A stretch of 64,000 nucleotides of DNA from NCBI RefSeq assembly GCF_017377795.1, contig NZ_JAFRDR010000010.1, positions 124,001-188,000 of the forward strand, in the 5' to 3' direction. The stretch comes from Williamsia soli (GTDB taxonomy: Bacteria > Actinomycetota > Actinomycetes > Mycobacteriales > Mycobacteriaceae). Position numbers and translations under genes: made by a program. Below, piece after piece: positions 39,363 to 47,036 of the stretch. The notes under the pieces are model-generated. The model worked only from the letters and a program-made list of their open reading frames with translations, did not search any database and had not been told where the DNA came from. Numbering within the stretch: position 1 is the first letter of the stretch; each line of letters starts with the position of its first letter.

Positions 39363-40364
39363 GTGTCATTCATCCGCACGTCGGTGGGCAACGGTGTCGG
39401 CGAGATCATCCTCGACCGGCCGAAGGCGCTCAATGCGCTCGACCAGACGATGGTCGATGACATGTTCCCCATCCTCACCGACTGGGCCGACGACCCGTCG
39501 GTGGAACTGGTACTGGTGACCTCGGCAAGCGATCGTGCGTTCTGCGCAGGTGGCGACATCCGGGCGATTCGCGACGCTGCCGTCGCCGGCGACCACGCTG
39601 CCGTGACCCGCTACTTCAGTGCAGAATACGAACTCGATCAACTGGTCGCGGAGTACCCCAAGCCGTACGTGTCCTTGATCGACGGCGCGGCCATGGGCGG
39701 CGGCCTCGGTATCAGCGTGCACGGCGAGGTGCGCGTGGTGAGCGAGAAGGCCGTGATCGCGATGCCGGAGACGGCCATCGGATTCATGCCCGACGTCGGC
39801 TCGACCTACTTCCTCCCTCGACTGCCCGCCGGTGTCGGGCTCTGGCTCGGCCTCACCGGCGCCCGCGTGCGCGGCGCCGACGCCGTCGCAGTGGGTCTGG
39901 CCACGCATTACGTGCCCAGTGCCAAGATCGGTGAGTTGGCCGACGCCATCCGCTCCGGGACCCCGCTGGCCCAGGCGCTGAACGGGCGTGCCGAAGATGC
40001 GTCCCGCACCGACCTCCCGCTGGCAAAGATCGCGGAGTATTTCAGCGACGATCCGGTGAACGCGATCGTCGGCGGTCTGCGAGGGGCGGTAGGGGACGAC
40101 TGGGCGGCCGAGATGGTCACCCTGCTCGAACAGGCCTCACCGACCAGCCTCGTGGTCACCGCGGCGATGATCGAGCTCGGCGCACGTTCCACCCTCGATG
40201 AGTGTCTCGAGCGGGAGCTGCACGCCGCCGAACAGATCACCAGGACCCCGGACTTCGCCGAAGGCGTACGTGCGGTCCTGGTCGACAAGGATCGCAACCC
40301 GGCGTTCAGTCCTGCGGACCTGCTTGATGTCGACCCCGAATTGGTCACCCGGATGATCGGCTGA
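39363..40364 (+). CDS. 3-hydroxyisobutyryl-CoA hydrolase (crotonase superfamily)
   Basis: A 333-residue crotonase-fold enzyme that probably hydrolyses 3-hydroxyisobutyryl-CoA in valine degradation. The oxyanion-hole segments are SDRAFCAGGDIRAI and DGAAMGGGLGISVHG. The Glu and Asp positions typical of HIBYL-CoA hydrolases are in AMPETAIGFMPDVGSTYFLPRL. The length (333, versus ~260 for plain enoyl-CoA hydratases) and the C-terminal extension also fit. GTG 39363 has AAGGAGAAGG upstream. It lies 14 nt after the ABC-F gene. Confidence 0.88.
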   Translation: MSFIRTSVGNGVGEIILDRPKALNALDQTMVDDMFPILTDWADDPSVELVLVTSASDRAFCAGGDIRAIRDAAVAGDHAAVTRYFSAEYELDQLVAEYPKPYVSLIDGAAMGGGLGISVHGEVRVVSEKAVIAMPETAIGFMPDVGSTYFLPRLPAGVGLWLGLTGARVRGADAVAVGLATHYVPSAKIGELADAIRSGTPLAQALNGRAEDASRTDLPLAKIAEYFSDDPVNAIVGGLRGAVGDDWAAEMVTLLEQASPTSLVVTAAMIELGARSTLDECLERELHAAEQITRTPDFAEGVRAVLVDKDRNPAFSPADLLDVDPELVTRMIG

Positions 40365-40434
40365 CGCCTACTTCTCGGGCCGGTACCGCGGTTCGGGCGG
40401 CACCAGCCGCGTTCGTCGCCTACTCTCGTTGAAC

Positions 40435-40456
40435 AACTGGGTCGTTTGACCCAGTT
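40435..40456. promoter_or_regulatory. Inverted repeat, probable autoregulatory TetR operator
   Basis: AACTGGGTC (40435-40443), spacer GTTT, then GACCCAGTT (40448-40456) form 9-bp arms. A TACTCT -10 candidate is at 40421-40426, so the dyad covers the start of transcription of the TetR-MFS-PLP-oxidase operon. Binding by the TetR encoded next is inferred. Confidence 0.72.
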
Positions 40457-40479
40457 TGGATGGGGCGGAAGGCGCGAGC

Positions 40480-41106
40480 GTGGCGAGGATCTCGGTGGAA
40501 CGGCGCAGAGACCTGCTGGTCGCGGCCGCATTCCGGGTGATAGCCGATCACGGGGTCGAAGCTGCGACCACCAGGCGTATCAGCGCCGAGGCGGATATGT
40601 CGCTGGCGAGCTTCCACTACGCGTTCGAATCCAGGAACGAACTGCTCGCCGAACTGGTCGCGCGTGGGACCTCCGATGAGTTCGCGGCCATCACCGCCCC
40701 GTTGACCCCGCCGGCCCGATCGGTCGACCCGTGGACTCTGCCGGACGATATCGGTGAGCTTCTCAAGGCGGGTCTGACGTCGTACCTCGACAGCGTCGTC
40801 GCAGACCCGGGTCGCGAAGCCGCGATGATCACCCTGGCCCAGTACGCACGTCGCACCGCGGGGCTCGAGCACTTCGCCCGGCGCCTGTACGAGCGCTATT
40901 ACGAGATCGCCCAGGCCTCGCTCGAAGCGGCCGCCGAGGCGATGGACGTCTGCTGGGCAACGGACCCGCAGGAGTTGGCACCGCTGGTGGTGGCGGCAAC
41001 GGACGGCCTCACCCTGGCCTATCTCAACACCGGTGACCGGGACGTCGCCGAGCGGATCATCGACTCGACGGTCGCCATGCTCCGCGGGCATGTGACGCCG
41101 CGATGA
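40480..41106 (+). CDS. TetR-family regulator heading the MFS-PLP enzyme-oxidase operon
   Basis: A 208-residue regulator. The N-terminal HTH is RRRDLLVAAAFRVIADHGVEAATTRRISAEADMSLASFHYAFESRNELL (in pieces); the rest is a helical ligand domain. The GTG at 40480 with GGAAGG upstream is preferred to the TTG at 40456, which lies inside the operator. The MFS gene overlaps its stop (ATGA), so regulator and targets are one operon. The ligand is unknown; it is probably the operon's own substrate. Confidence 0.87.
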   Translation: MARISVERRRDLLVAAAFRVIADHGVEAATTRRISAEADMSLASFHYAFESRNELLAELVARGTSDEFAAITAPLTPPARSVDPWTLPDDIGELLKAGLTSYLDSVVADPGREAAMITLAQYARRTAGLEHFARRLYERYYEIAQASLEAAAEAMDVCWATDPQELAPLVVAATDGLTLAYLNTGDRDVAERIIDSTVAMLRGHVTPR

Positions 41107-42356
41107 CGGTGCTCACTCCGACCCGGGTCTCGAACCGGTGGATCAGTCTCTTCGCGCTGGCGTGGGTCGGGATCTGGATGGCGCAACTGGCGCCGTTCCA
41201 GCTGTCGTTGCCTGAGCAGATCAACGACTGGCTCGGATTCGGAGACCAACTGCGCCAGGACAACTGGCAGGAGAGCGTCACCACGTTCGGCACCATCTCG
41301 GGGATGTCGGCGCTGTGCGCACTGATCACCTTTCCCTTGGCGGGTGCACTCAGTGACCGCACCACCAGTCGATTCGGCCGGCGTCGGCCATGGATACTCG
41401 GTGGCGTCCTGCTCTTTGCGGTCGGGCTCATCCTGCTCGGGATGCAAGACACCTACTGGGGTCTGGCGATCTGCTGGTGCCTGGCGCTGACCGGTTTCAG
41501 TGCCGCGTCGGCCGCATTGACCGCGATGATCAGCGACCAGGTCCAGGTGGATCAACGCGGAGTCGTCTCGAGTTGGGTGTCCGCGCCCCAGGCGATCGGC
41601 ACCATCGTCGGCATCGCGATCCTGTCGGTACTCGCGCTCGGGTTCCTCGCCGGGTACGCGGTGCTCTCGGTGCTGCTGATCGTCCTGGTGGCACCGTTTC
41701 TGTGGTTCGTCGAGGATGTGGCTGTGTCGCACCATGATCGCGCCCGGGTCACCATCCGGCACCTGCTGTCCGAACTCTGGATCTCACCACGCGAGCAACC
41801 CGACTTCGGGTGGACACTGCTCGGCCGGATTCTCGTCAACATCGGCAACGCACTGGGTACCTCACTGCTGTTCTTCTACCTGCAGTTCGGCCTCGAGGTC
41901 TCCGATCCCGAGATGTCGTTGCTGCTGCTGACCGCCGTCTACATGGTGTTCGTCATCGGGGCGTCGGTGACATCGGGTGTACTCAGTGACCGAATCGGCA
42001 GACGCAAACCATTTGTCCTGGTTGCCGGCGTACTGCAGGGGGTTGCGGCTGTGGTCATCGCGGTGGTCCCGAGTCTGCCTTCGACGATGCTCGCCGCGGC
42101 GCTCCTCGGCTCAGGGTTCGGATGTTTCCTCGCGGTCGACCAGGCACTGGCCACTCAAGTATTACCCGACGCCGATCACTACGGAAAAGATCTGGGAATC
42201 ATGAACATAGCGATGGCCGTACCGCAGGCGCTGGGACCACTCCTGGGCGCCTGGATCGTGCACGCGACGTCGGGATTCGCCGGACTCTTCGTTGCCTCCG
42301 CGATCTTCGGAGTGCTCGGCGGGATCTCGGTGCTGCAGGTCAGGAGTGTGCGATGA
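41103..42356 (+). CDS. MFS transporter
   Basis: A 417-residue protein with 12 predicted helices. Two motif A-like loops are visible (GALSDRTTSRFGRRRPWI and GVLSDRIGRRKPFVL), and the second sits symmetrically in the C-terminal half. The overall pattern resembles sugar- or glycoside-type symporters, which often carry the SDRTTSRFGRRRPWI-like loop. Overlaps by 4 nt at both ends with TetR and the PLP enzyme suggest that it imports the operon's substrate. Substrate unknown. Confidence 0.86.
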   Translation: MTVLTPTRVSNRWISLFALAWVGIWMAQLAPFQLSLPEQINDWLGFGDQLRQDNWQESVTTFGTISGMSALCALITFPLAGALSDRTTSRFGRRRPWILGGVLLFAVGLILLGMQDTYWGLAICWCLALTGFSAASAALTAMISDQVQVDQRGVVSSWVSAPQAIGTIVGIAILSVLALGFLAGYAVLSVLLIVLVAPFLWFVEDVAVSHHDRARVTIRHLLSELWISPREQPDFGWTLLGRILVNIGNALGTSLLFFYLQFGLEVSDPEMSLLLLTAVYMVFVIGASVTSGVLSDRIGRRKPFVLVAGVLQGVAAVVIAVVPSLPSTMLAAALLGSGFGCFLAVDQALATQVLPDADHYGKDLGIMNIAMAVPQALGPLLGAWIVHATSGFAGLFVASAIFGVLGGISVLQVRSVR

Positions 42357-43612
42357 CCGATCTCGATCTCGGCAGCGCGGTCATGCGGCCGCAATGGCCC
42401 TGGGACGCCGACCCCGAGAGCTATTGGGGTGCAATCGATCATGCCGTCGAAACGTACGGTGCTGTGGACAGCCCGGTGGCCGTCCTCGAGTTGACCGCCC
42501 TGCGACACAACCTTGCGGATCTTCGCGCGCGAGCCGGGGGCGTGCCGATCCGGGTGGCGTCGAAATCGTTGCGGGTGCGCTCGGTCATCGAGCAGATCGT
42601 GGCGGTCGAAGGGTTTGCCGGAGTGCTCGCCTACGACGTGGCCGAAGCGCACTGGCTGGCGACGACGGGTGGCATCAGCGATGTCTTGGTCGGATACCCG
42701 TCACCGAACCCGCGCGCCATCGCGGCGTTGGTGTCCGATCCCGTTGCCGCGGCGCGGGTCACCCTACTGGTGGACTCGGTGGAACAACTCGGGCTGATCG
42801 GGAGGGCGATCGCCGGCACGTCCGGCGACGTACGGATTGCGATCGACCTCGACGCCTCGTACAAGACGCCGCTGCTCGGTCACATCGGGGTGCGGCGATC
42901 TCCGGTGCGCACCGAGGCCCAGGCAGTGGAACTCGCGCACAACATCGTCGGCCGTGAGCGGATGACGTTGGTGGGCGTGATGTCGTACGAGGCACAGGTC
43001 GCCGGCGTCGGGAACGAGGTGCCGGGCAAGCGTCTGCGCAACAGCATAATCGGTGACATGCAGCGACGTTCGATGATCGAGCTCATCGAGCGCCGCACTG
43101 CAGTCGTGGCTGCGATCCGAGAGATCGCCGACCTGGAGTTCGTCAACGCAGGGGGCACCGGGTCGATCGAGGCGACCGCGCTCGATCCGTCGATCACCGA
43201 CATCGCCGCGGGCAGCGGCTTCTTCGGTGGTCACCTGTTCGACAACTACGCGCACTTCAAGCCTGCACCCGCGATGTCTTTTGCGCTGTCTGTGGCGCGG
43301 GTCCCCGCGCGGGGGATGGTGACCTGCCTGGGTGGGGGCTGGATCGCCTCCGGCCCGCCCGGGCCCGACCGGCTCCCGTTGCCGGTCTGGCCACCGGGCT
43401 TGGAGTACGTGACCCGCGAGGCGGCCGGAGAGGTACAGACTCCGCTGCAGGGCAAACAGGCGCGGCGGCTGACCGTCGGCGATCGGGTGTGGTTGCGCCA
43501 CACCAAATCCGGCGAGCTCAGCGAGCACGTGAACGCGGTGTTGATCGTCGACGGTGACGCGGTGGTCGGCGAGTTGCCCACGTACCGAGGTGAGGGGAAG
43601 TGTTTTCTGTGA
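42353..43612 (+). CDS. Fold-type-III PLP enzyme: alanine racemase / D-threonine aldolase-like
   Basis: A 419-residue PLP enzyme with an N-terminal alanine-racemase-type TIM barrel. The probable Schiff-base lysine is in IRVASKSLRVRSV, followed by the FAGVLAYDVAEAHWL and DLDASYKTPLLGHIGVRRSP segments. The C-terminal domain has SGELSEHVNAVLIVDGD, the His region used by D-serine dehydratase/D-threonine aldolase relatives. It is usually annotated 'amino acid deaminase/aldolase'. M. tuberculosis Rv1769 is, from memory, a relative next to an aldonolactone oxidase (Rv1771). Reaction unknown. Confidence 0.85.
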   Translation: MTDLDLGSAVMRPQWPWDADPESYWGAIDHAVETYGAVDSPVAVLELTALRHNLADLRARAGGVPIRVASKSLRVRSVIEQIVAVEGFAGVLAYDVAEAHWLATTGGISDVLVGYPSPNPRAIAALVSDPVAAARVTLLVDSVEQLGLIGRAIAGTSGDVRIAIDLDASYKTPLLGHIGVRRSPVRTEAQAVELAHNIVGRERMTLVGVMSYEAQVAGVGNEVPGKRLRNSIIGDMQRRSMIELIERRTAVVAAIREIADLEFVNAGGTGSIEATALDPSITDIAAGSGFFGGHLFDNYAHFKPAPAMSFALSVARVPARGMVTCLGGGWIASGPPGPDRLPLPVWPPGLEYVTREAAGEVQTPLQGKQARRLTVGDRVWLRHTKSGELSEHVNAVLIVDGDAVVGELPTYRGEGKCFL

Positions 43613-44931
43613 GCTCGCGTGCGCCGTCGTCTCCGGGAACATGGCGAAACTGGGGCCGTACCGAGTCGGTCGTCCCGGCGCAGGTGCGCACGCCCAGCGC
43701 GGTCGAGGACGTCGTCGCGGCGATCGCGGACGCCCGCGCCGGTGGACTGACGGTCAAGCCGGTCGGTTCGGGTCATAGTTTCAGTGCGATTGCCCTGGCG
43801 CCCGGAATCCAATTGGACATGTCGGCGTTGCGCGGACTGGTGTCGGTGGATGCGCACACCGCGCAGGCCACCTTCCGGGCGGGCACCACGTTGCGCGAGA
43901 TACCGGATCTGCTGGCACCTCACGGATTGGCGATGCCCAATCTGGGCGACATCGACGCCCAGACGCTCTCCGGTGCGACGTCGACGGGCACGCACGGCAC
44001 GGGCGCGACGTTCGGTGGAATCAGCACGCAGATCGTCGGTCTCGAGATCGTCAGCGGGACGGGGGATGTGCGAAGAATCGACAGCGGACGGCCGGAGTTG
44101 CTCTCTGCTGCCGCGCTCGGTCTCGGCGCTCTCGGGGTGGTCACGGAGATCACCCTGCAGTGCGTTCCGAGCTTCGGTTTGCACGCCCAGGAGGGGCCGG
44201 AACCGGTCGACGGCGTGATCGATTCGTTCCTGGACTCCGTTGCCGCCCATGACCACTATGAGTTCTACTGGTTTCCGCACACCGGGTTCGCGTTGACCAA
44301 GAAGAATGTCCGGGTCGGCGCTGACGTGCCTCCACAGGGGCCGGGCAGAGTTCGGCGCTACATCGACGACGAACTCCTGAGCAACGGGTTGTTCGGTGTG
44401 CTGTGCGCGGTGGGGGCCCGGGCGCCGAAGGTGGTCCCGAAGCTGAATTCGCTGGCTGCCAATGCGTTGTCGGCACGTACCTACATCGATTCGTCCACCC
44501 GGGTGTTCGTGTCGTCGCGTACTGTGCGATTCCGGGAGATGGAATATGCACTTCCGATCGAGCGGATACCTGAGGCGCTGAACCAGATTCGCGAGTTGAT
44601 CGCGCGGCGCCGGTACAAGATCAGCTTCCCGCTGGAGGTGCGGGCCGCCGCAGCGGACGACCTGATGTTGTCGACCGCCAGTGGCCGCGCGTCGGGATAT
44701 ATCGCCATCCACCGATACCACGGCGATCGGACCGACGGTTACTTCGACGACGTCGAGGAGATCATGGTGTCCCACGGTGGTAGACCGCATTGGGGGAAGA
44801 TGCACACGCGAGACGCGGGGTACCTGCGGACCGTGTACCCCCGGTTCGACGAGTTCCTCACCGTACGCGCGGACTTCGATCCGGACCGCGTCTTCGCCAA
44901 TCCGTATCTGCGCTCGGTACTCGGGACCTGA
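43609..44931 (+). CDS. FAD-linked aldonolactone oxidase (L-gulono/D-arabinono-1,4-lactone oxidase type)
   Basis: A 440-residue VAO-fold flavoenzyme. FAD is probably bound covalently through the His in VGSGHSFSAIAL. The FAD domain continues with GDIDAQTLSGATSTGTHGTG. The C-terminal substrate domain ends with the signature GGRPHWGKMHT, typical of aldonolactone oxidases. Relatives oxidise L-gulono- or L-galactono-lactone. The GTG at 43609 overlaps the previous stop (GTGA) with GAGGGGAA upstream; GTG 43600 is an alternative. Last gene of the overlapped operon. Confidence 0.9.
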   Translation: MSSRAPSSPGTWRNWGRTESVVPAQVRTPSAVEDVVAAIADARAGGLTVKPVGSGHSFSAIALAPGIQLDMSALRGLVSVDAHTAQATFRAGTTLREIPDLLAPHGLAMPNLGDIDAQTLSGATSTGTHGTGATFGGISTQIVGLEIVSGTGDVRRIDSGRPELLSAAALGLGALGVVTEITLQCVPSFGLHAQEGPEPVDGVIDSFLDSVAAHDHYEFYWFPHTGFALTKKNVRVGADVPPQGPGRVRRYIDDELLSNGLFGVLCAVGARAPKVVPKLNSLAANALSARTYIDSSTRVFVSSRTVRFREMEYALPIERIPEALNQIRELIARRRYKISFPLEVRAAAADDLMLSTASGRASGYIAIHRYHGDRTDGYFDDVEEIMVSHGGRPHWGKMHTRDAGYLRTVYPRFDEFLTVRADFDPDRVFANPYLRSVLGT

Positions 44932-44969: not shown

Positions 44970-47036
44970 ATGGACGGTGTCGGATCGACAGCGACGCTCG
45001 GCCCGGAGATCTCGCGGCGGAAACTACTCGGTGCGGCGGCGGCCGGTACCGTGGTCGCGGGGACGGCGAGCGTGATGGGTATGGGTGCGCCCGGTCTCGC
45101 GGGCGCGGCATCGTCCGGTTACCTGGTGGGCGCGGGGCGGGCCGACATGACCGGAGCTGTCGCCGGACAGGGGATGATGGGGTACTCGCAGCCCCAGCAG
45201 ATCGCTGAAGGTCTGCACATGCGGTACTGGGCGCGGGCCTTCATCATCGTCGACAGTGCCACGGGTAACCGGGTCGTCTTCGTCACCGCCGATTCGGCGT
45301 GCCTGTTCGAGTCGATCCATCTCGGAGTGCTGCGCGCGCTGCGGAGGAAATACGGTGCTCTTTACACGGAGGCCAATGTGAACCTCAATGCGACGCACAA
45401 TCACAACTCGTGTGGCGGAACGGCGTGGGACTACGCGTACTCGCTGGCGGCCTTCGGATTCAAGAAGAACTCGTACGACGCAGAGGTGAGCGGCATCGTC
45501 GATGCCATCGACCGGGCTCACGACTCGCTCGCGCCGGGCACGATCAGTTTGGGTCGCAGCGAGTTACACAATGCCAGCGCCCAGCGATCGAGAGCCGCCT
45601 TCGATCTCAATCCCCCCGAGGACAAGAAGGTGTTCCCGGGCGCGGTGGACCCGGCCGTGACCGTCCTGCGACTGGCCCAGGGTGGCAACGACATCGGGGT
45701 GATCACCTGGTTCTCGACCCATGGCACCTCCATCGCCGATCACAACCGGTTGATCACGGTCGACAACAAGGGTTATGCGAGTCACCGGTGGGAATCCGAT
45801 GAACCCGGTGTGGTCGCGGCATTTCCGCAGACCAATGCCGGTGACATGTCGCCGAATCTGAACCTGGTGCCGTTCGATCCCTCCGGCCCCACCAAGGACA
45901 ACAGGGCGAACTGCGCGATCATCGGCGAGCGTCAATACCAGGCCGGACGCGCGGCGCTGGCGGACAGCTCGGCGATGACCCGCGCCGGCGTCGACTCCGT
46001 GATCCACTACGTGGACTTCTCCGACGTCGCGATCGATGGTTCGTACACGCCCGACGGCAAGGCGGCCAGGACCAGCCCCGCGATGATGGGTGCCGGTGCG
46101 GTCGCCACCAGCACCGAAGACAACTTCGAGCAGCCGTTGCCGTTCGTCTACGAAGGTCAGGTCAACCCCCTGGTTGCGGTGCTGGGTGGGCTCGATGCAC
46201 CGGTCTCGCCATGGATACGGGACGTGCAGGCCCCCAAGCTGGTCGCCTTCCCGCTGGGTCTGCTCCCGCCCTGGCCGTGGATCCCACAGGTCATGCCCGT
46301 CCAGATCATGCGGATCGGCGATCTGGTGCTCGCGGCGGCGCCGGCGGAGTTCACCATCGTGTCCGGGCTGCGGGTGCGACGGGTGGTCGCGAACGCGCTG
46401 CGGGTGCCCTTGGACAACGTATTGCTGCAGGGCTTCGCGAACGGGTACAGCCAGTACGTCACCACTCCCGAAGAGTATGTGTCGCAGCAGTACGAGGGCG
46501 GGGAGACCCAGTTCGGGCGGTGGACGCTACCGGCGTACATGCAGAGTTTCGACAAGCTCGCAGGTGCGCTGGCGCGCGGAACCGATCTCGGCCACGGGCC
46601 TGCGCCACTGGACAAGTCGAGCATTCAACCGGATCTGGTGCCGCCGCCTCCACCCGATGTGCCGGTGGCCGGTCGCCGATTCGGTGACGTGATCACCGCC
46701 CCGAAACCTGCGTATCGCGCGGGGGAGAGCGCGGTCGCCGAGTTCGTCGGAGCCCACCCGAACAACAACCTGCGCCGGTCGGACACCTACCTCGAGGTCG
46801 AGCAACGTTCGGCTGATGGGTGGACCCGGGTGTGCGACGACAATTCGTGGTCGACCGAGTTGCACTGGTCACGCCCGGAGGGCAGCGTCGACGCGTCGAT
46901 CATCAAGGTGCTCTGGGCGATTCCGGTGGGTACCTCGGGAACCTTCCGGATCCGATACTTCGGTGATCGGAAGAACCCGGCCGGAAAGGTCACCGGCTTC
47001 ACCGGCACCTCACGAGCGTTCGAGGTCACCGCCTGA
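44970..47036 (+). CDS. Neutral/alkaline ceramidase, Tat-exported
   Basis: A 688-residue secreted amidase that hydrolyses N-acyl bonds of ceramides. A twin-arginine signal is at the N-terminus (SRRKLLGAAAAGTVVAG). The Zn site is in LNATHNHNSCGG and the catalytic serine segment in TNAGDMSPNLN, both matching neutral ceramidases; a C-terminal immunoglobulin-like domain follows from ~residue 540. The ATG at 44970 has AAGGGGGAG upstream. The 38-nt gap after the lactone oxidase leaves open whether it belongs to that operon. Confidence 0.9.
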   Translation: MDGVGSTATLGPEISRRKLLGAAAAGTVVAGTASVMGMGAPGLAGAASSGYLVGAGRADMTGAVAGQGMMGYSQPQQIAEGLHMRYWARAFIIVDSATGNRVVFVTADSACLFESIHLGVLRALRRKYGALYTEANVNLNATHNHNSCGGTAWDYAYSLAAFGFKKNSYDAEVSGIVDAIDRAHDSLAPGTISLGRSELHNASAQRSRAAFDLNPPEDKKVFPGAVDPAVTVLRLAQGGNDIGVITWFSTHGTSIADHNRLITVDNKGYASHRWESDEPGVVAAFPQTNAGDMSPNLNLVPFDPSGPTKDNRANCAIIGERQYQAGRAALADSSAMTRAGVDSVIHYVDFSDVAIDGSYTPDGKAARTSPAMMGAGAVATSTEDNFEQPLPFVYEGQVNPLVAVLGGLDAPVSPWIRDVQAPKLVAFPLGLLPPWPWIPQVMPVQIMRIGDLVLAAAPAEFTIVSGLRVRRVVANALRVPLDNVLLQGFANGYSQYVTTPEEYVSQQYEGGETQFGRWTLPAYMQSFDKLAGALARGTDLGHGPAPLDKSSIQPDLVPPPPPDVPVAGRRFGDVITAPKPAYRAGESAVAEFVGAHPNNNLRRSDTYLEVEQRSADGWTRVCDDNSWSTELHWSRPEGSVDASIIKVLWAIPVGTSGTFRIRYFGDRKNPAGKVTGFTGTSRAFEVTA

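Follow-up and report, generated by a model that had tools for sequence, protein, structure and literature searches.

What does an operon do that joins a transporter, a pyridoxal 5′-phosphate (PLP) enzyme and a flavin-dependent oxidase under a single regulator? The question is raised by a 64,000-nucleotide stretch of the Williamsia soli genome (6.07 Mb in 25 contigs), referred to here as the window. Within it, genes for a TetR-family regulator, a major facilitator superfamily (MFS) protein, a fold-type III PLP enzyme and an oxidase of the D-arabinono-1,4-lactone oxidase (ALO) type follow one another on the same strand. A preliminary description, made from the DNA letters alone, correctly reported these four genes but overlooked a fifth on that strand, which begins 38 bp past the ALO stop codon and specifies a neutral ceramidase. 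We put at about even the chance that the operon is an actinobacterial unit of sphingolipid catabolism, resembling SphC-SphD plus CerN of Pseudomonas aeruginosa and having sphingoid bases as its substrate. The more general scheme, in which an oxidation precedes cleavage or deamination by the PLP enzyme, is rated higher.

Co-inheritance of the PLP and ALO genes

The two enzymes were sought in a sample of 298 genomes of the window's order (presence at E ≤ 1e-40). The PLP enzyme was detected in 178 genomes and ALO in 198; both were present in 176, the PLP enzyme alone in two, ALO alone in 22 and neither in 98, these numbers being raw counts that ignore kinship, as are all association counts given below. 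The conserved pairing proposed in the preliminary description is borne out by this distribution. The ALO and PLP genes are no more than 5 kb apart in 75 of 80 loci of a first set (the best 80 of 587 confirmed) and in 65 of 78 loci of a second (chosen from the listed matches, about one per genus, with a few repeats). Gene order varies among lineages, being tandem, divergent or convergent, while the link between the two genes persists. An ALO match was found somewhere in the genome in 24 of 25 genomes searched, most of which were selected for a separation of the two genes or for membership of genus g92, which we take to be Streptomyces. In the g92 loci L240–L246 the PLP gene is elsewhere, and six of the seven ALO genes stand beside another MFS-like gene in a conserved order; in Streptomyces triticirhizae (L096) the PLP and ALO genes are neighbours.

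Genome G024 has no member of the window's PLP family at the search threshold, and its ALO gene overlaps by 4 nt the gene for a 339-residue PF14031 enzyme with an HVD motif (L255). When this metal-type enzyme, which is D-threonine aldolase-like, was searched for in 63 genomes (E ≤ 1e-50), it was present in 18 of 23 ALO-only genomes (the 22 of the order sample and G024), in none of 19 pair-bearing genomes and in none of 21 bearing neither gene, one of which, G018, gives a partial match to ALO at 1.8e-25. Its gene is 0 to about 5.3 kb from ALO in eight genomes (G024, G068, G189, G177, G201, G132, G153 and G046) and on a different contig, some of these contigs being short, in six (G065, G077, G125, G159, G195 and G031); the ALO position is unlisted for G210, G239, G268 and G288. 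Five ALO-only genomes (G033, G082, G089, G193 and G246) have neither enzyme at the thresholds used. Judged by these profiles, the oxidase mostly goes with a partner of the D-threonine aldolase type, and two kinds can serve. Such an exchange of one aldolase-type enzyme for another while the oxidase stays the same, found in this analysis, gives independent support to oxidation followed by cleavage and, together with the co-inheritance, argues that the two enzymes act in sequence.

Compact PF14031 enzymes of 330–340 residues with an HxD metal motif, encoded near ALO, replace the window-type PLP enzyme in L255, L257, L258, L284, L285, L290, L291, L292 and L296. The W. soli genome itself has a separate PF14031 enzyme of the D-serine dehydratase type with an NHVC motif on contig 24 (L297:8039-9070), and no ALO match was found within the 16-kb stretch around it. 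Elsewhere, an ALO-type gene stands between two annotated sensory rhodopsin transducer genes on pSymB of Sinorhizobium meliloti (L305:6367-8506), and in Paracoccus yeei (L306:6944-9467) another is followed by a gene annotated as eutH (ethanolamine utilization).

The PLP enzyme

The annotated records consulted call the PLP protein alanine racemase or amino acid deaminase/aldolase, and the oxidase D-arabinono-1,4-lactone oxidase. The window PLP protein, the closest named relative of which is in Williamsia muralis (75% identity, among listed matches that may omit records very near the window), is predicted to have the barrel and beta domain of fold-type III that are common to D-threonine aldolase and D-serine dehydratase, and alignment places the Schiff-base lysine at Lys71. 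Metal-dependent D-threonine aldolase and D-serine dehydratase are further marked by the PF14031 domain, in which HxD or HxC supplies the metal ligands. Neither domain nor ligands were recognised in the window enzyme by profile search, alignment or sequence pattern. Its score against NF045642, the model of the 3-hydroxy-D-aspartate aldolase BhcC (46.9 bits), is below the cut-off of 690. The metal motif PxHx[CD]P occurs in none of 158 PLP-family members. A wider metal pattern, which recognised 5/5 D16, 2/2 BhcC, 14/15 PF14031, 1/1 own-genome and 0/2 DSD1-labelled control rows, matched three of the 158, probably at a position that is Arg instead of His in other members. The enzyme carries R382-H-T-K385-S-G-E388, and this RHxKxGE pattern is missing from three of the 158 gene calls (L198, L133 and L218).

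The metal motif is likewise absent from P. aeruginosa SphD. Two trees joined the window family to three SphD-type proteins and separated them from 25 and 17 others, respectively, of the D-threonine aldolase, D-serine dehydratase and BhcC types (100/99), although SphD sits on a long branch and the tree tool warned each time that the join may be false. A GG-x-W motif is present in all three SphD-type rows, in 15 of 32 window-family rows and in none of the 25 others. The protein thus appears to be a D-threonine aldolase-like relative without a recognisable metal site, and SphD-like. It had been described at the outset as racemase- or D-threonine aldolase-like, a view that comparison with the latter family upholds as to fold, the PF14031 metal site not being recognisable. 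The idea that it is a simple alanine racemase paralogue, named there as a possible refutation, was rejected, as its closest whole-chain relatives are not alanine racemases.

The ALO-type oxidase

The oxidase shares with L-galactono- and L-gulono-1,4-lactone oxidoreductases and alditol oxidase a VAO-type flavoenzyme architecture and the HWGK signature; the HWGKMH motif reported earlier is located at residues 394–399, and GSGHS (residue 53) and a gate glycine in NLGDI (residue 111) are also present. Its score exceeds the cut-off of the bacterial FAD oxidoreductase model TIGR01679 (404.9 vs 292.25 bits) and falls short of that of the sugar 1,4-lactone oxidase model TIGR01678 (220.5 vs 396.8 bits). 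The best solved relatives are an ancestral galactonolactone dehydrogenase variant (8qnc, 132 bits) and xylitol oxidase (2vfr, 116 bits), both lower than P. aeruginosa SphC (240 bits), although the former scores are from phmmer and the latter from BLAST and are not strictly comparable. No export signal was seen at the N-terminus of the window protein (VSSRAPSSPGTWRNW). Across 172 ALO proteins, GxGHS is unmatched in 13 (gene starts may be cut), and the gate residue is Gly in all 172 (168 by pattern, four by eye); it is Ala in SphC and Pro in the Ruegeria and Yoonia enzymes, which have adjoining cytochrome c genes. According to the accessible part of PMC11505616, Ala is found in dehydrogenases and Gly or Pro in oxidases, and a Gly-bearing Mycobacterium tuberculosis enzyme, flavin-free in recombinant form, showed no oxidase activity. 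Because of that enzyme, use of O2 by the window ALO is only likely.

The ceramidase and comparison with P. aeruginosa

The product of the fifth gene matches the solved P. aeruginosa neutral ceramidase (2zws) over its full length at 468.6 bits; against the neutral ceramidase equivalog NF041649 it scores 530.5 bits, below the cut-off of 1200. A twin-arginine leader, SRRKLLGAAAAG, was read by eye. A ceramidase gene adjoins the PLP-ALO pair in Williamsia or same-genus loci (the window, L058, L063 and L162). In two family-f2 genomes (L174 and L295) one stands with the MFS gene on one side and the PLP gene on the other, and in G022 (L172 and L259) there is one near two ALO genes. In the window's order, full-length ceramidase is found in 52 of 178 PLP-positive vs 7 of 120 PLP-negative genomes; conversely, the PLP enzyme is present in 52 of the 59 genomes with full-length ceramidase vs 126 of the 239 without.

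The sphBCD genes of P. aeruginosa specify a cytochrome c, a homologue of ALO and a fold-type III PLP enzyme and are induced with cerN (PMC5150637, accessible part); sphingolipids induce SphC-SphD along with the neutral ceramidase (PMC3900636, PMC5150637), and sphBC is needed for sphingosine metabolism (PMC11893366), again as stated in the accessible parts of these papers. Both systems thus have an ALO-type flavoenzyme and a fold-type III PLP enzyme, with the ceramidase linked by regulation in P. aeruginosa and adjoining the oxidase gene in the window. In a P. aeruginosa plasmid record (L304) the set follows the sphBCD order next to a gene annotated as sphR; the SphC and SphD of this record share 34.9% identity over 430 aa with the window ALO and 21.6% over 426 aa (53 bits) with the window PLP enzyme, respectively. 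The MFS protein is a difference from sphBCD. The cytochrome c motif CxxCH was found in none of 895 gene calls shorter than 220 aa in 159 loci. SphR-like AraC genes adjoin the pair in Mycolicibacterium (L071 and L072), Tsukamurella (L301) and, by likeness, L187; in a Burkholderia locus (L299) one lies three genes from the pair, beyond genes that look by eye like those of an MFS protein and a porin, and in G259 and G213 this AraC gene is the sole SphR match at E ≤ 1e-15. In view of its gene content, which includes no cytochrome c, exported oxidase or SphR, the module would best be called a variant of SphC-SphD with ceramidase. PMC11893366, in its accessible part, regards STRING co-occurrence matches in Actinobacteria as perhaps orthologous in some cases and likely unrelated in others. 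In the literature searched, no paper was found that assigns the actinobacterial pair to sphingosine, and the accessible parts of PMC13293705 and PMC3350403 have no bearing on it.

The nearness of Rv1769 and Rv1771 in M. tuberculosis, mentioned in the preliminary description, has a counterpart in M. riyadhense (L307), where the PLP and ALO proteins are 45% and 42% identical to those of the window; the two genes are, however, separated by an M28 peptidase gene, and no TetR, MFS or ceramidase gene is annotated in the stretch. The same arrangement is seen in L183 and L184, with peptidases 79–82% identical to the M. riyadhense protein, and the M. riyadhense locus is on a linear plasmid.

Regulation and gene organisation

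Table 1. Features of the Williamsia soli operon (window coordinates), and loci with neighbouring GH1 genes.
Feature	Position	Strand	Evidence
Operator dyad, core TGGGTC-GTTT-GACCCA (40438-40453)	40435..40456		Perfect repeat; conservation at TetR starts of other genera
TetR-family regulator	40480..41106	+	PF00440 40.8 bits, PF13977 30.8 bits; gene call
MFS transporter, closest to GPH-type sugar symporters	41103..42356	+	PF07690 139.8 bits, PF13347 61.1 bits
Fold-III PLP enzyme, SphD-like	42353..43612	+	Alignment, trees, predicted fold
ALO-type FAD oxidase (VAO family), SphC-like	43609..44931	+	TIGR01679 404.9 bits; motifs; 34.9% to SphC
Neutral ceramidase with twin-arginine leader	44970..47036	+	PF04734 527.6 bits (cut-off 32.1), PF17048 160.5 bits (cut-off 30.5)
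GH1 within 5 kb of PLP gene	L078, L080, L082-L084, L086, L088, L097, L099, L100, L112, L114, L130, L131, L177, L191, L194, L197, L198, L201, L207		

The first four genes are joined by stop/start overlaps, which were re-read in the sequence as previously reported: ATGA at 41103 (TetR/MFS), ATGA at 42353 (MFS/PLP) and GTGA at 43609 (PLP/ALO). The dyad ahead of them, also noted earlier, reads AACTGGGTC-GTTT-GACCCAGTT and is a perfect 9+9 repeat. Perfect 9+9 dyads with a spacer of up to 8 occur in 113 of 12,783 sampled 85-bp stretches of the window, so that such a repeat is uncommon but not decisive on its own; it is conservation across loci that carries weight. Exact copies of the core TGGGWC-N4-GWCCCA number 30 in 2.78 Mb of loci, the segment from the window being counted, and 22 of these copies fall inside 41 stretches of 260 bp at TetR gene starts (10,660 bases), an enrichment that is partly circular since the pattern was chosen after some of its sites had been viewed. 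The other TetR starts comprise five with one mismatch and 14 without the core. Besides further Williamsia, the genomes with such sites include Microbacteriaceae and a metagenome-assembled genome labelled Hamadaea; the conservation at related operons that had been suggested as a check is seen at these TetR starts. The window itself has a single match at up to one mismatch, as do 62 of 100 shuffles. For TetR, a GTG start at 40480 fits better; TTG at 40456 is possible but overlaps the dyad. A promoter scan of 40300–40560 found no promoter. Conservation of the core at TetR starts supports autoregulation, and TetR probably controls its own gene from the dyad.

The MFS protein had been called a sugar-type importer. 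GPH-type sugar symporters are indeed its nearest group, but it is far below the cut-off of TIGR00792 (43.4 vs 231.35 bits). Among the loci with a GH1 gene near the PLP gene (Table 1), the GH1 gene is often directly 3′ of ALO or together with an MFS gene. By simple patterns, NEP/NEQ is present in 18 of 22 GH1 proteins, N[FW]EW in 18, TENG in seven and TEGG in six. These neighbours could act on glycosides of sphingoid bases, or on something else.

Proposed function and alternatives

The sphingoid-base proposal came from the ceramidase and from stereochemistry, the parallel with SphC-SphD being met in the literature afterwards. Sphingosine is 2S,3R; conversion of C1 to a carboxylate alters the CIP (Cahn–Ingold–Prelog) order and gives a 2R,3R β-hydroxy-α-amino acid of the D-allo series, and D-allo β-hydroxy-amino acids are the substrate class of low-specificity D-threonine aldolases. 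For substrate, step order, products, transport and TetR ligand we infer the following course. Exported ceramidase would release the sphingoid base from ceramide outside the cell, and the base would be imported, perhaps via the MFS protein. The ALO-type flavoenzyme would oxidise the primary alcohol at C1 in two rounds, giving the carboxylate, and the PLP enzyme would then split the oxidised molecule. Because the metal motif of D-threonine aldolase is absent, conserved Lys385, His383 and Glu388 may replace the metal at the β-hydroxyl. TetR would repress its own operon at the dyad until released by a substrate-derived signal. More tentatively, and at somewhat worse than even chances, the pair may represent a widespread and hitherto unrecognised actinobacterial route in which 2-amino-1,3-diol lipids are oxidised at C1 to D-β-hydroxy-amino acids and cleaved by retro-aldol reaction. 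The PLP enzymes would then form a metal-free D-threonine aldolase-like subfamily, with a conserved lysine at the place of the metal, evolutionarily interchangeable with the metal-type enzyme, and GH1 would perhaps free the bases from glucosides in some lineages. A gcvT gene near the Tsukamurella pair (L301) was considered as a sign of a glycine product and given little weight, since related genomes show a pepB-gcvT-ilvE order.

Several observations weigh against sphingoid bases as the substrate. No member of the PLP-ALO family has a demonstrated action on a sphingoid base, and in P. aeruginosa itself the SphC product is unknown, direct action of SphBC unproven and sphD dispensable under the conditions used (PMC11893366, accessible part). 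That organism has the SphB cytochrome c, a Tat (twin-arginine) signal on SphC and SphR, whereas the window set lacks these and has TetR and the dyad instead. No SphR match at E ≤ 1e-15 was found in the W. soli genome, nor in G000, G016 or G027, and the best match is far from the PLP gene in G236, G035, G076, G229 and G340 (the PLP position is unlisted for G182 and G302). Of the 59 genomes with full-length ceramidase, no more than three were seen to have it next to the pair (G000, G025 and G054; judged by eye, some PLP and ALO positions being unlisted), and only two of 80 and three of 78 loci of the two sets have it at a distance of up to 5 kb. To these may be added the neglect of kinship in the counts, the long SphD branch with its possibly false join, the GG-x-W motif in fewer than half of the window-family rows, the sugar-like MFS protein, the GH1 genes found at up to 5 kb from the PLP gene in 21 of the 158 loci, and the report that the M. 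tuberculosis homologue Rv1771 is an L-gulono-lactone dehydrogenase (PMC11505616, accessible part).

The GH1 genes, some accompanied by an MFS gene and mostly with the NEP/NEQ and N[FW]EW motifs, and the GPH-like transporter are what would be expected if the substrate were an amino sugar. In that case the MFS protein would import a glycoside, GH1 (where present) would free the amino sugar, ALO would oxidise C1, and the resulting 2-amino-aldonate of the D-glucosaminate type, which likewise is 2R, would be dehydrated or cleaved by the PLP enzyme; the chemistry of the pair is as in the sphingoid-base proposal and the substrate alone differs. We consider this unlikely given the SphC-SphD precedent and the presence of a ceramidase gene in the window operon and at loci of another family; GH1 would equally fit glucosylceramide or glucosylsphingosine. 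D-glucosaminate was not found as a substrate of a D-threonine aldolase relative in the literature searched, and PMC12343721, in its accessible part, deals with other enzymes.

Ranked behind it, and also doubtful, is a housekeeping, broad-specificity clean-up of amino alcohols to which ceramidase, GH1, MFS and regulator genes were added lineage by lineage, with sphingolipids as the case in Williamsia. Many genomes have the pair without extra genes nearby, and regulators and transporters vary (TetR, AraC, different MFS proteins), as this would predict, but the sphingoid base is the sole substrate with regulatory or genetic support. Least probable is the aldonolactone pathway of the preliminary description, in which ALO would yield a compound of the ascorbate type and the PLP enzyme would have some unrelated amino acid as its substrate: the ALO family name and the activity reported for Rv1771 speak for it. 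Against it are the score below the sugar 1,4-lactone oxidase cut-off and two signs of sequential action, namely that the enzymes are closely co-inherited and that a different D-threonine aldolase-type enzyme can take the place of the PLP enzyme.

For sphingoid bases, the locus touches a gap in the known biochemistry, as the product of SphC in bacterial sphingosine breakdown could not be identified (PMC11893366, accessible part). The enzymes described here are from environmental actinobacteria and have neither an export signal nor a cytochrome partner, which makes both steps directly assayable. If the proposal is true, it would explain an enzyme pair that 176 of the 298 genomes sampled from the window's order possess, and whose job has so far been unclear in many actinobacteria.

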